Shown: piece after piece, positions 25,860 to 30,109 of the stretch | Position numbering within the stretch: the first letter of the stretch is position 1 | Layout of the letters: every line of letters starts with the position of its first letter | Virus record (IMG/VR): IMGVR_UViG_3300037882_004189 | Location: 1-44,263 of that record | DNA from: a virus | Direction: 5' to 3' (one strand) | Length of the DNA: 44,263 nucleotides | The notes under the pieces: generated by a model | The model's database searches: none | What the model was told of the DNA's origin: nothing | What the model saw: only the letters and a program-made list of their open reading frames with translations | Program-made: the position numbers and the translations under genes

Positions 25860-27033
25860 TGTTCATCTGTCTTTTAATCAGTCCGGCCTTCTGCATAATT
25901 TCTACAATCTTCATTACGTTGTGGGCCGGAGTTCTTTGTTGAATAAAGTTTACCAGCCGGTTCTCAAGGATCGGCTTTTTGTCCTTGATATAAAGGGTGT
26001 AGAGGAAATGCCACGCCTCGTTAATAACCGTACTATCGCCGCCGGCGTTCATTGCTTTGAAGATGTCGGGCATGTGAGACTCGGCTTCGAGTAACCAGTC
26101 AAGTGCTTCAGTAAAGTTCTCTAATGTAATGTTTAAGCTATCGCCAGAACTTGCACTGGCAACCATGCACAACTTAAGTAGGTGTGCACTACGGCGGATA
26201 TTATACGTGGCTAGTTTTGGATGGTCTGGTTGCGGAGGACCACCAGCAAGATGCCACTGGGTAAATCCTATTCTTGCATCAGGTTCAAATTGCATCGGGC
26301 CGTACAGCTTGCCAATAGAATTAAGATCGAAGGTAAGTTCCTTTCCTAACTTCTCGTTCCTAGAGTTGTCGCTGAAAAGATCCTGTAAATGGCTGTCGCC
26401 GGAATAGATAAGATTTACCCTGGAAATAAACCCTTGTGTCCAAGCGCCCTCCGGCATTACGTTGTTGAGGTAAGACGGGGTTGTTGCGGCCAGAAGATTT
26501 AACTGCGGCTTGTCAATCATAAACTTAAGCGCGGCGCTTCTCTTCCGCTCCGAGTACGGGTGTCCATCATACACGTCTGTGAGTACGTTCATAAACTCGT
26601 TATCATAACCTGGGATCAACACACCGAGCTCGTTGGCGAGGATCTTTAACGAGTTAAAATTGAATTGCCCAAACCCACCTTGCCCGTCTTTATTCGTCAC
26701 CACTCCTTTGCGTTCCGCTTCTCGCAGCTCGTCCATGAGGGAAGCTTTAGAAACAGAAGAGGAAGCGAGGTGGTGGTCGTCAAGACTCTGCCATAACTTT
26801 TGCACAGTTCTTGTAACTACTGTTTTCCCTACACCTGGGGGCCCGACTAGTACGCAGAAAAGGTTTGGGTAAAGAGGGGCTACGTTTGTAGTTATCCAAA
26901 CCCTTCGTTCAAGCGCCCCTGCGACAGCTGAGATTGCTCCCCACTTCCGGAACAAATCCGGCGAGGGCAAGCCTGCTGTGTAGGCATAAAAGCCGTCTAT
27001 CCAGTTAACTAATTTACGCTGCTTTATCATCAT
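25816..27033 (-). CDS. AAA+ ATPase, DUF3987-like, probable replication protein
   Basis: The 405-aa protein has a clear Walker A, GPPGVGKT (residues 64-71), and a later LAATTPSYL segment of sensor-1 type. The start, WIDGFYAYTAGLPSPDLFRKWGAISAVAGALERRVW, is typical of DUF3987-like ATPases found with phage or plasmid primases and helicases. It probably unwinds or loads at the replication fork; no primase active site is visible. Its start overlaps the DNA polymerase stop (ATGATGA), linking the two. No terminator is seen at its end, which overlaps the convergent late block. Confidence 0.65.
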   Translation of the reverse strand: MMIKQRKLVNWIDGFYAYTAGLPSPDLFRKWGAISAVAGALERRVWITTNVAPLYPNLFCVLVGPPGVGKTVVTRTVQKLWQSLDDHHLASSSVSKASLMDELREAERKGVVTNKDGQGGFGQFNFNSLKILANELGVLIPGYDNEFMNVLTDVYDGHPYSERKRSAALKFMIDKPQLNLLAATTPSYLNNVMPEGAWTQGFISRVNLIYSGDSHLQDLFSDNSRNEKLGKELTFDLNSIGKLYGPMQFEPDARIGFTQWHLAGGPPQPDHPKLATYNIRRSAHLLKLCMVASASSGDSLNITLENFTEALDWLLEAESHMPDIFKAMNAGGDSTVINEAWHFLYTLYIKDKKPILENRLVNFIQQRTPAHNVMKIVEIMQKAGLIKRQMNTMGLHEVVPEGRKQ

Positions 27034-28631
27034 TTAAACCGGAGTTTGGAGTGGGAAATTCTTTTGCGACTATCGTTGCCTTTGTATTTTATTAAGCCAT
27101 CGGGGTTGTCCTTGACGCTCCCGACCTGGGAAGGTAAACACATTCCCCGCCTGACGTGGTCTTTATTCCACATCTCGATGTCACCCCAGTTCCAGCCTAC
27201 CTTAGCCTCGGTTGGTACGCAGAACTCGCGGCCGCCCTTAAGTACGAGCGGGGCTTTGATTGCTTCGATCGCCCACGGTACAATTTCGTCCTCGAGTTCT
27301 TCGGGGTACTGGAAGAGAAGGGAGTCGTGAACCTGGACAAGGATCTGTACCTTACCGGAGCGGAAGATGTTAAGGAGGCCGATATTAATTTCTTCCCCCG
27401 TCATCGACTGAGGACAAAAGGAAATCGCTTCCCGCAAGGTGCTGTCGTCTTGTGCACGACCAAAGAAGTGGCGGCGGCGATTGAACAGGGTGGTGAGGGA
27501 AGAATGTGTATGAAGCTGTTCCCGCACCCACTTGTGAAATAGCTGGATTTCTGGAAAACCCTCGAAGTAGCCGGACTGAAATTCCCGAACGTTTGACACA
27601 GGGATCTTGGTGTGCATTGCCATTGTCGGGGCAGTGCCGTAGAAGTTTGTGCCGTGTCCGAGCCGCTTCGCCATATCGCGGTAAGAAAAGTCTCGGTAAG
27701 CGATCTCATCTGCAATAGCCCGCCAGCCTTTCCGTTCTTCCGGCCACGGTAGCTGTGGGTTTGCCATCCGGCAGACGAAAGTGTGAAGGTCGCCGGACTC
27801 ACAAGCGTCAAGGTAGCGGCCGATAACTGCATCGTGTTCTGTTCCTTTAAAAATATTCCAGCACATAGCGCCGAGGTTACGGGAGTCGGCTTGCTCGAGA
27901 TCTATGTTACAGAACTTCATGCCACGGTCTGCGCAAAAGATTGAGCGGAGAGAACGACTGATGTTCTGTGAATTGCTTCCAGTTCCAAAGTCGGAAGCAG
28001 AGGAAGAAAGACGACCTGTGTTTGTGCCGGCGATGTTGAAGCCGTACCGGAAGCGTCCGTCTGCGTCGATGCCGGTTTCCAAGAACGAGCGCTTCTTGTC
28101 AAGATCACGCAGAGCAAGGATGTGATTGCAAATAGGCTCGGCGTAGAAGTTTATAGAAAGCTTCTCGATCGCTTCGCGGTTAACAGTTGGAGCGAAGATA
28201 CCGTTGGCGTTGCGCTTCTTAATAGGCTTTAGCTCCATTACTTTGTAAAAAAGGTTCTGTAGCTGTGCGTTGCTGCGCCACCAAAGGGGGGAAGAGCAGG
28301 GAAAGCCTACGCCCTCGGAAACGATTTCCATCAACTGTGTGTTGAGGATTTCGATGTCCCGCACTGTGGAATGAAGTACAGCTCCGCGCCTGTTCTGGTC
28401 AACGAGTAGCCCGCGAAGCGTCATCTCCATAATCGGGCCTTGTAGGGCGCGGGAGAAGTCGTAAGTATGGCGGGCTACTGAGTCGAGTTGAGGGAGTAGG
28501 GCATCACGAACCTCAAGAGTAACTGCTGCGTCGAAGCCGTTGTATATCCACTCCCGTTCATTACTTGTGAGAGATTGATCGCCGTATGTACCAGTGTCAA
28601 AGCGCAGGTTTTCGGTGTCAATTATTTTCAT
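27030..28631 (-). CDS. DNA polymerase family A, C-terminal part (polymerase domain)
   Basis: The 533-aa protein contains the family A polymerase motifs: A, FCNIDLEQADSRNLG (near 239-253); B, RDMAKRLGHGTNFYG (near 317-331); and C, VQVHDSLLFQ (near 428-437, His-Asp intact). Its first 45 residues hold WIYNGFDAAVTLEV, which looks like exonuclease motif III (YxxxD). The other exonuclease motifs lie in a separate upstream gene (29102-30109). The polymerase is therefore split inside the proofreading domain, with a DUF1937 gene between. ATGA overlap with that gene supports the start. Confidence 0.9.
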   Translation of the reverse strand: MKIIDTENLRFDTGTYGDQSLTSNEREWIYNGFDAAVTLEVRDALLPQLDSVARHTYDFSRALQGPIMEMTLRGLLVDQNRRGAVLHSTVRDIEILNTQLMEIVSEGVGFPCSSPLWWRSNAQLQNLFYKVMELKPIKKRNANGIFAPTVNREAIEKLSINFYAEPICNHILALRDLDKKRSFLETGIDADGRFRYGFNIAGTNTGRLSSSASDFGTGSNSQNISRSLRSIFCADRGMKFCNIDLEQADSRNLGAMCWNIFKGTEHDAVIGRYLDACESGDLHTFVCRMANPQLPWPEERKGWRAIADEIAYRDFSYRDMAKRLGHGTNFYGTAPTMAMHTKIPVSNVREFQSGYFEGFPEIQLFHKWVREQLHTHSSLTTLFNRRRHFFGRAQDDSTLREAISFCPQSMTGEEINIGLLNIFRSGKVQILVQVHDSLLFQYPEELEDEIVPWAIEAIKAPLVLKGGREFCVPTEAKVGWNWGDIEMWNKDHVRRGMCLPSQVGSVKDNPDGLIKYKGNDSRKRISHSKLRFK

Positions 28632-28957
28632 TTATTCCACCTAACGTAAGTAATTGGTTTGTTTAACTTTTGTGCGAGTTCTAGCTCTGCCCTAATGCCA
28701 ACGGAGTTTGCCCACCCGTCCAACATAAACACCTCGACTTCGTCAGCAGCACTAAGCATTTTTACGTTAAAAGACTCCCAGCTCTTTGCATCGTACGGAA
28801 AATCAAAGTATGTTGCGAACTGATGCCCGTATACGATAGGGGAGAATACGGACGTGCCTTGTTGAAGTTGTGTTTTGCAGTAAAGTAAAGCTTGCCGGTA
28901 TCGAAATTCACGTACGGGAAGCTCTTTGTGTGAGTAAGGGGAAGCGAGGTAGATCAT
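28628..28957 (-). CDS. DUF1937-family protein, nucleoside-deoxyribosyltransferase-like fold
   Basis: The 109-aa protein begins IYLASPYSHKELPVREFRYRQA and continues with VFSPIVYGHQF, a W-x-x-x-(N/D) segment and VFMLDGWANSVGIRAELELAQ, the pattern of DUF1937. That family is related in fold to nucleoside 2-deoxyribosyltransferases and may act on nucleotides; its reaction is not established. AAAGGA lies 10 nt upstream. It interrupts the DNA polymerase gene set. Confidence 0.75.
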   Translation of the reverse strand: MIYLASPYSHKELPVREFRYRQALLYCKTQLQQGTSVFSPIVYGHQFATYFDFPYDAKSWESFNVKMLSAADEVEVFMLDGWANSVGIRAELELAQKLNKPITYVRWNK

Positions 28958-29101
28958 TGTCAGTGTTTCCTTTCTTTTGAGTACTCGTATTAAATGACTA
29001 AATCAGAAACGTTTCTACAGGCAAACGATCGGCAGGACTTCCAACCGAACAACCTCCAAAAACCTTTTACGGGTTGCCAATCGCCCCATTGCTCTTACAT
29101 C
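28958..29101. other. Untranslated gap inside the polymerase gene set
   Basis: This 144-bp gap separates the glycosylase-exonuclease gene from the DUF1937 gene. It contains a perfect palindrome GAAACGTTTC (29008-29017) and repeated AACC-type elements at 29037-29057. I see no confident promoter, terminator or group I intron core. It is unusually long for this tightly packed strand. Confidence 0.5.
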
Positions 29102-30109
29102 TCAGTCCTCCTTTTTAACTGATGTATTTTTCCGTTCCATTTTCCACGCCGCCTCATCAGTGTATATGCTGCCGAGAAATGCGAGGCCTTTTTGTAGTTC
29201 CGGCTGAAGCGCGTGGTGCATTAGCATAGTGTCATCGCCGTTAATCATTCCGTGAACTGGAATGCCGTATGAACGCCACAAAAAACCTGCATCGTACATA
29301 AAGTTTTGCCCTACGTTTATGCGAGGGGAGCGGAAGAGTTTCCTGAGGTAATCCCAAACTTTAAGTTCCTCCTCGAGTGTAGACCAATAGTTTCCTCCTG
29401 GTTTTGTTGGATCGTAAAAGGGGATTACAATGGCTCGATCCTTGGTAGGCGCAAGCCCGATGCAGGTTATCTGATTACTTATAGTCTCGATGTCGGTGGA
29501 TAGGACGAGGGAAGGCTCGATAAAAGTTTCGTGGAAAGAAAGGATGTCGGACAAAGACGGCTCGATGTGAACGAAGCGCCGGAGGCGGCGAACGTCTGGA
29601 TACTCCTGTTCCCTTGCTGCTTTAGCACAGTCGGCGGTAAGGATCGGGCGCAAAGAGTAATCGCGCAGAACCGCTGCCGGATGATAGGAGCAAAGTACCT
29701 TGCCGAACTCCGTTTGTACAGACGCCCCTCGGACTTTTGAAATCCGTGAGTCCTGTAGGAAGAACCAAGAAGCTGTTCCGCCGAGAGCAAGGATCAGGTT
29801 GGGCTTGATCGCGGCGATCTCTTTCTTGAGGCGAGTTAGTTCGTGGGTGTACTCGTTACTTATCCAGCCCGAGGGGTGCTTAGGCATACCGACTATAGCT
29901 GCGCGTTTATCTGATACAGTAATGCTTTTAATATCCCCACCAGCTAGGTGGAAGTTAAACACGTTTGTGAGGTAGCAATCTTTTTTCTCAATTCCGTTTT
30001 GTGCAAGGACTTGAGATAAGAGAAAACCGGCAGCCCCCACGAAAGGCTGGCCGGCTTCTTCCTCTTGTCGCCCGAAGGCTTCACCGCAGATTAAGATTTT
30101 ATTCTGCAA
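29102..30109 (-). CDS. Uracil-DNA glycosylase domain fused to N-terminal part of a 3'-5' exonuclease
   Basis: Residues 1-165 are a family 4/5-like uracil-DNA glycosylase: GEAFGRQEEEAGQPFVGAAG (near 9-28) and SYHPAAVLRD (near 143-152) are its two active-site motifs. The N-terminal CxxC that helps bind the 4Fe-4S cluster in family 4 enzymes is absent. Residues about 195-320 are a DnaQ/Klenow-type exonuclease with motif I STDIET and motif II GQNFMYDAGFL, but no motif III; that lies in the polymerase gene. The start is TTG 30109, with AAGGA 9 nt upstream; a stop codon in frame just upstream rules out an earlier start. It probably pairs with the polymerase subunit. Confidence 0.85.
   Translation of the reverse strand: MQNKILICGEAFGRQEEEAGQPFVGAAGFLLSQVLAQNGIEKKDCYLTNVFNFHLAGGDIKSITVSDKRAAIVGMPKHPSGWISNEYTHELTRLKKEIAAIKPNLILALGGTASWFFLQDSRISKVRGASVQTEFGKVLCSYHPAAVLRDYSLRPILTADCAKAAREQEYPDVRRLRRFVHIEPSLSDILSFHETFIEPSLVLSTDIETISNQITCIGLAPTKDRAIVIPFYDPTKPGGNYWSTLEEELKVWDYLRKLFRSPRINVGQNFMYDAGFLWRSYGIPVHGMINGDDTMLMHHALQPELQKGLAFLGSIYTDEAAWKMERKNTSVKKED

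Follow-up and report, generated by a model that had tools for sequence, protein, structure and literature searches.

A phage family A DNA polymerase encoded as two conserved chains that divide the proofreading exonuclease between them

Can a replicative DNA polymerase proofread when its gene is cut inside the exonuclease domain? The question is raised by a locus in the virus record IMGVR_UViG_3300037882_004189, of which positions 1 to 44,263, i.e., the whole stretch of 44,263 nucleotides, were analysed and are referred to here as the window. On the minus strand, to which all gene and motif coordinates of the window refer, the locus reads as follows: a chain combining a uracil-DNA glycosylase (UDG)-like domain with part of an exonuclease (positions 29102 to 30109, 335 residues; the front chain), a 144-bp spacer (28958 to 29101), a DUF1937 gene (28628 to 28957), and a family A polymerase chain that begins with another part of the exonuclease (27030 to 28631, 533 residues). 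A recheck of the open reading frames (ORFs) returned the same coordinates, gap, and gene order as a preliminary description of this DNA. We estimate at roughly 85% the probability that the two chains constitute a natural family A polymerase of two subunits, with a proofreading site formed jointly by both chains, and that the division stems from one cut, of HNH endonuclease-type origin, in the ancestor of a phage clade. This reading is based on the single clade formed by the split genes, the invariant exonuclease residues, the ratios of nonsynonymous to synonymous substitution rates (dN/dS), the conserved new termini, the confident predicted folds, and the consecutive mapping of the chains onto the Klenow fragment; it draws further on the ribosome-site-like motifs, the lack of a second family A polymerase, the split locus L181, and the activity of split gp43 and NrdA proteins (PMC2988022).

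The exonuclease is of the family A type, with the DxE, NxxxD, and YxxxD motifs all present and divided over the two chains. As confirmed by translation, the front chain carries motif I (exo I; STDIET with D206 and E208, 29483 to 29500) and motif II (exo II; NFMYDAGF with N269 and D273, 29282 to 29305), and the polymerase chain carries motif III (exo III; YNGFDAAVT with Y30 and D34, 28518 to 28544). The preliminary description had thus correctly placed the break within the exonuclease, with an incomplete set of motif residues on each half; its motifs stand, whereas its numbering of the front-chain residues (D205, E207, and D271) has to be corrected to D206, E208, and D273 and supplemented by Y30 and D34 of the polymerase chain. 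In phrog_17, the DNA polymerase profile of PHROG, the front chain corresponds to positions 480 to 788 and the polymerase chain to positions 808 to 1241, and in the Klenow fragment the front chain matches approximately residues 341 to 446 and the polymerase chain matches from residue 497 onwards (chain index 18 to 123 and 174 to 601, respectively). Since the chains cover consecutive parts of both references, the cut lies after exo II and before Tyr497 of exo III. Taken alone, the front chain is a weak match to the PolA exonuclease family PF01612 (4.1e-4; 20.6 bits, under the cut-off of 23.6). The polymerase chain matches PF00476 (9.5e-28), and in its polymerase domain (27177 to 28484) the motif A and C aspartates and the motif B lysine (D244, K322, and D436) are invariant in an alignment of 83 sequences. 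No further PF00476 region or PF01612 match was found elsewhere in the 44-kb record, and the two-chain enzyme would be the only family A replicative polymerase of this phage. An independent IMG/VR contig with 92 to 94% identical DNA has the same split, with chains that are 99% identical, which excludes the sequencing error that the preliminary description had named as a possible refutation. The split reflects neither an error nor an intron nor gene decay.

Related loci were collected from scans with alignments of the front and polymerase chains, keeping the best 80 per chain; they comprise 121 gene pairs with both chains present and differing polymerase sequences, including the window and Caulobacter phage Kuura as well as a few near-copies. 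Within this sample the cut falls in the same loop in 121 of 121 pairs. In a tree of 97 polymerase regions, computed with a quick method and with some long outer branches, all 77 split rows form one clade on a long stem (Shimodaira-Hasegawa-like approximate likelihood ratio test, SH-aLRT, 100), and 14 unsplit UDG-exonuclease-polymerase proteins lie outside it. The locus shares with genes-in-pieces enzymes the existence of unsplit homologues and the conservation of both pieces. Kuura, the sole isolate found in the split clade, sits in a basal subgroup. A host scan of bacterial assemblies returned only four close matches, all in short contigs of bins from unrelated phyla, so that no host is assigned. 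Within the clade, locus L140 comes nearest to a fused gene, with a single in-frame TAG separating the chains (positions 1933 to 1938).

The residues expected to perform proofreading are nearly invariant on both sides of the cut. Specifically, D206, E208, N269, and D273 are unchanged in 129 of 129 front chains, and D34 and T38 are found in 126 of 126 polymerase chains, with Y30 and N31 each in 124 of 126. In a comparison of the window with its nearest relative, dN/dS amounts to 0.019 for the front chain and 0.021 for the polymerase chain; the exonuclease segment shows a dN of 0 at a dS of 0.23. The termini created by the cut are conserved as well: at the front-chain C-terminus (29102 to 29146), W322 and K323 (129 of 129) are followed by a 12-residue tail ending in K-K-E-D, with K332 in 118 of 129, and the polymerase chains begin with a conserved M-(K/R)-I-I-x-T.

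AlphaFold2 was used to predict each chain separately, on family alignments of 79 and 83 sequences. The front-chain model reached a predicted local distance difference test (pLDDT) value of 92.5, with tail residues 329 to 335 disordered in the isolated chain, and the polymerase-chain model reached 94.4, and in it a helix comprising residues 23 to 48 already carries exo III. Foldseek related the front chain to family 4 UDGs and the Klenow exonuclease region, and the polymerase chain to the Taq, Bst, and Klenow polymerases. In the two-subunit reading, Asp206, Glu208, and Asp273 would sit on an exonuclease sheet provided by the front chain, and the N-terminus of the polymerase chain would bring the final exonuclease helix with Tyr30 and Asp34. 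The chains, each translated from its own start, would bind one another where the cut has opened the exonuclease domain, completing the 3'-5' proofreading site at the subunit interface; upon binding, the disordered tail may become ordered. Physical association of the chains and exonuclease activity are what we infer from the conservation and the folds taken together. A further suggestion, which we regard as possible but rather doubtful, is that the front chain serves a family A replicase as a proofreading subunit able to dissociate, in a role like that of epsilon in bacterial DNA polymerase III; only once this chain docks would proofreading then be switched on, with the timing set by the UDG-like domain and by the level of the upstream chain.

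The preliminary description had left the choice between assembly of the chains and loss of proofreading. The latter would make the halves remnants, or proteins with separate jobs as a UDG-like protein and an exonuclease-minus polymerase, and would agree with the lack of a complete exonuclease residue set on any chain. It is nevertheless very unlikely in view of the near-invariance of the exo I to III residues on both chains and of the exonuclease segment that has accumulated no amino acid change; these invariant residues and the purifying selection strongly favour assembly. The glycosylase triad, in contrast, has drifted in 46 of 123 clade members, which indicates that the exonuclease chemistry is strictly selected and the glycosylase chemistry is not. 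We give hardly any credence to the front chain being a free exonuclease or glycosylase that works apart from the polymerase and completes its site with its own acidic K-K-E-D tail: the acidic character of the tail is conserved, but the individual acids vary (22 of 129 chains have Gly at position 334, and 14 of 129 lack position 335), the tail lacks order in the model, and the true exo III aspartate is on the polymerase chain throughout.

Could the product be a single protein after all, through intron splicing, a split intein, a frameshift, or bypass over the spacer? Introns are frequent in phage polymerase genes, and OM43 phages with a split polA have been suspected of containing them (PMC10580990). 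At the present locus, however, no Rfam family was detected in the window region, neither chain has an intein-like extension, and the stop-to-start distance over the 121 pairs ranges from -4 to 1924 bp (median, 540), with 11 pairs having at most 4 bp between stop and start and mostly overlapping. The relative frames of the two chains are evenly spread (46/41/34), and the polymerase chain has its own start, preceded by a ribosome-site-like motif in 75 of 121 loci (16 with random codons, maximum 26). In the window, this start (ATG) overlaps the DUF1937 stop in an ATGA (28628 to 28631), which may couple the two translationally; the front chain begins with a TTG that overlaps the end of a DUF3310 gene. 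Owing to the variable spacer, the spread frames, and the ribosome-site-like motifs, neither splicing nor bypass nor readthrough is needed, and together with the conserved termini at both ends this leaves a single protein with a negligible likelihood; the former intron that the preliminary description had offered as an origin of the break finds no support in the same observations. The 144-bp spacer of the window has stops in all frames, contains no promoter, terminator, or RNA structure above chance, and, read in all frames, no lost exonuclease sequence. At this place a 47-codon ORF can be read in the nearest relative (L002), of which the window has a TAA at codon 2, and an additional small ORF of about 150 bp lies directly ahead of DUF1937 in L002.

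The other origin proposed in the preliminary description, insertion of the DUF1937 gene, fares little better. This gene (109 residues; PF09152, 1.1e-12) is nucleoside 2-deoxyribosyltransferase-like with an S-x-G-x3-E motif, and its family is the commonest in the spacer, being present at 57 of 121 loci, followed by the DUF7768 family (19), RNA_pol_A_CTD-like genes (12), a few HNH genes, and others. As the cause of the break it is highly improbable, since it is missing from 64 split pairs, including abutting ones and Kuura of the basal subgroup, and since a swap for a diverged copy separates the window from its nearest relative, the copies sharing 61% amino acid identity while the flanking chains share 99%. 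DUF1937 is a replaceable passenger of the spacer.

A more plausible cause is illustrated by locus L181, which in the tree belongs to an otherwise unsplit group around MW202489, with L178 and L176 as nearest neighbours. Here, a 142-residue HNH endonuclease gene (phrog_3377, 8.3e-28) is inserted at the same loop; it begins just past the front-chain stop and at its far end overlaps with a GTG able to start the exo III-polymerase part. An Rfam search of L181 found no intron family, and the insertion therefore resembles the intronless one that splits nrdA of Aeh1 (PMC2988022). By analogy with this sister lineage, the old split probably arose when a free-standing HNH homing-type endonuclease gene entered the loop separating exo II from exo III once, in the ancestor of the large phage clade; the endonuclease would have been lost later, and the spacer would then have become home to small genes, such as DUF1937, that come and go. 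The break in the window contains DUF1937 and no endonuclease gene, and HNH genes occur in L181 and in the spacers of some clade members (L085, L086, and their relatives). The same polymerase type has been broken repeatedly and independently, as indicated by cuts at other sites with other inserts, namely a 184-residue ORF of unknown type in Vibrio phage MF497422 (L006, 6668 to 7222) and an NrdR-type zinc-ribbon ORF in MW202554 (L008, 2878 to 3138). In Pseudomonas phages MR6 (MT104469, 9803 to 10189) and MR12, relatives of the L181 HNH gene are covered by features that the annotation calls putative DNA polymerase.

Three points weigh against a two-subunit proofreading enzyme of this origin. The proposed HNH origin of the old split leans on a single recent case, L181. 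Tyr30 is replaced by Arg in 2 of the 126 polymerase chains. Finally, the loci were picked as best matches to the window, and the uniform split can be read as a feature of this clade rather than of most phages of this kind.

Among known systems, the closest are the unsplit phage UDG-exonuclease-polymerase proteins (phrog_17; e.g., Microcystis phage Mel-JY34, MW202489, and BK063670), which have the same domain order, are homologous throughout, and share a similar gene neighbourhood, with a methyltransferase gene upstream in several cases and a DUF3987/primase-type gene downstream; they differ in being one chain, in which a short, uninterrupted loop joins exo II to exo III. Kuura (OQ067476; Kuura_029 and Kuura_026) belongs to the split clade and is cut in the same loop, but has two other small ORFs in place of DUF1937; its UDG-exonuclease chain is annotated as a hypothetical protein, and the passages located in the Kuura paper mention only a DNA polymerase (PMC9959647). 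Precedents for reassembly are the split T4-type gp43 of Aeromonas phages (43A/43B), which co-purifies and is active, and the split NrdA of Aeh1, which works (PMC2988022). These are replication enzymes turned into two chains by an insertion, with products that reassemble, whereas the present enzyme is known from sequence and single-chain models; they are a family B polymerase and a reductase rather than a family A polymerase, and have no UDG-like domain. In the OM43 phages MEP401/402, the split polA occupies two ORFs that flank a small one (PMC10580990); this polymerase is of family A too, but the cut lies in the polymerase domain and leaves the exonuclease whole on one chain. ExnV1 (PDB 7r0t), a stand-alone exonuclease from a phage polA reported to be probably truncated (PMC9629493), differs in having a complete exonuclease including exo III and no partner chain. 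Overall, split phage polymerases and genes in pieces are of a known kind; a cut through the proofreading site that is fixed over a large clade was not found described in open-licence papers.

If the chains assemble, a proofreading site has long been kept across a family A subunit boundary in about 100 sequenced phages, and a natural system would be at hand for adding proofreading to, or withholding it from, one polymerase chain. The intact gene, the fresh endonuclease insertion, and the ancient stable split provide an evolutionary series from a single protein to a complex. The split also accounts for annotations in which the front half appears as a hypothetical protein while the back half passes for a complete polymerase.

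The UDG-like domain reported earlier on the front half (residues 1 to 175; 29585 to 30109) was recovered by both profile and fold: it matches the UDG superfamily PF03167 (4.7e-21) and, by Foldseek, the UDGs of T. maritima (2.6e-12) and T. thermophilus, with a family 4-like fold. It scores 82.7 bits against family 4 itself (TIGR00758, NCBIfam UDG_fam4), below the cut-off of 125.3 bits; no CxxC precedes motif 1, and across the clade only Cys45 and Cys64 widely recur. E10, N49, and H143, which from family 4 UDG motifs we take to be the catalytic and uracil-binding positions, are intact in the window and in 77 of 123 clade members. The coupling of uracil sensing to replication envisaged in the preliminary description was overstated: fusion of a UDG domain to the exonuclease and polymerase is ordinary for this polymerase family, and about a third of the split clade no longer has the triad intact. 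A degenerate UDG appeared linked to a deoxyribosyltransferase-like spacer gene (36/38 versus 36/74; Fisher, 3.5e-7), but the association fails after correction for shared ancestry and is not claimed. The solved family A polymerase of phiLo (PDB 9qhs, 1142 residues) has an N-terminus matching the UDG-like domain and is a possible template for the arrangement of UDG and exonuclease.

Two minor observations concern the polymerase domain. In loci L084, L085, L086, and L148 it is enlarged by in-frame inserts of about 230 to 290 residues, which are probable inteins; L148 shows a match to LAGLIDADG. In the window, the motif B position that apparently equals Klenow Phe762 is H326 (27654 to 27656), and histidine is found there in more than 90% of the clade.

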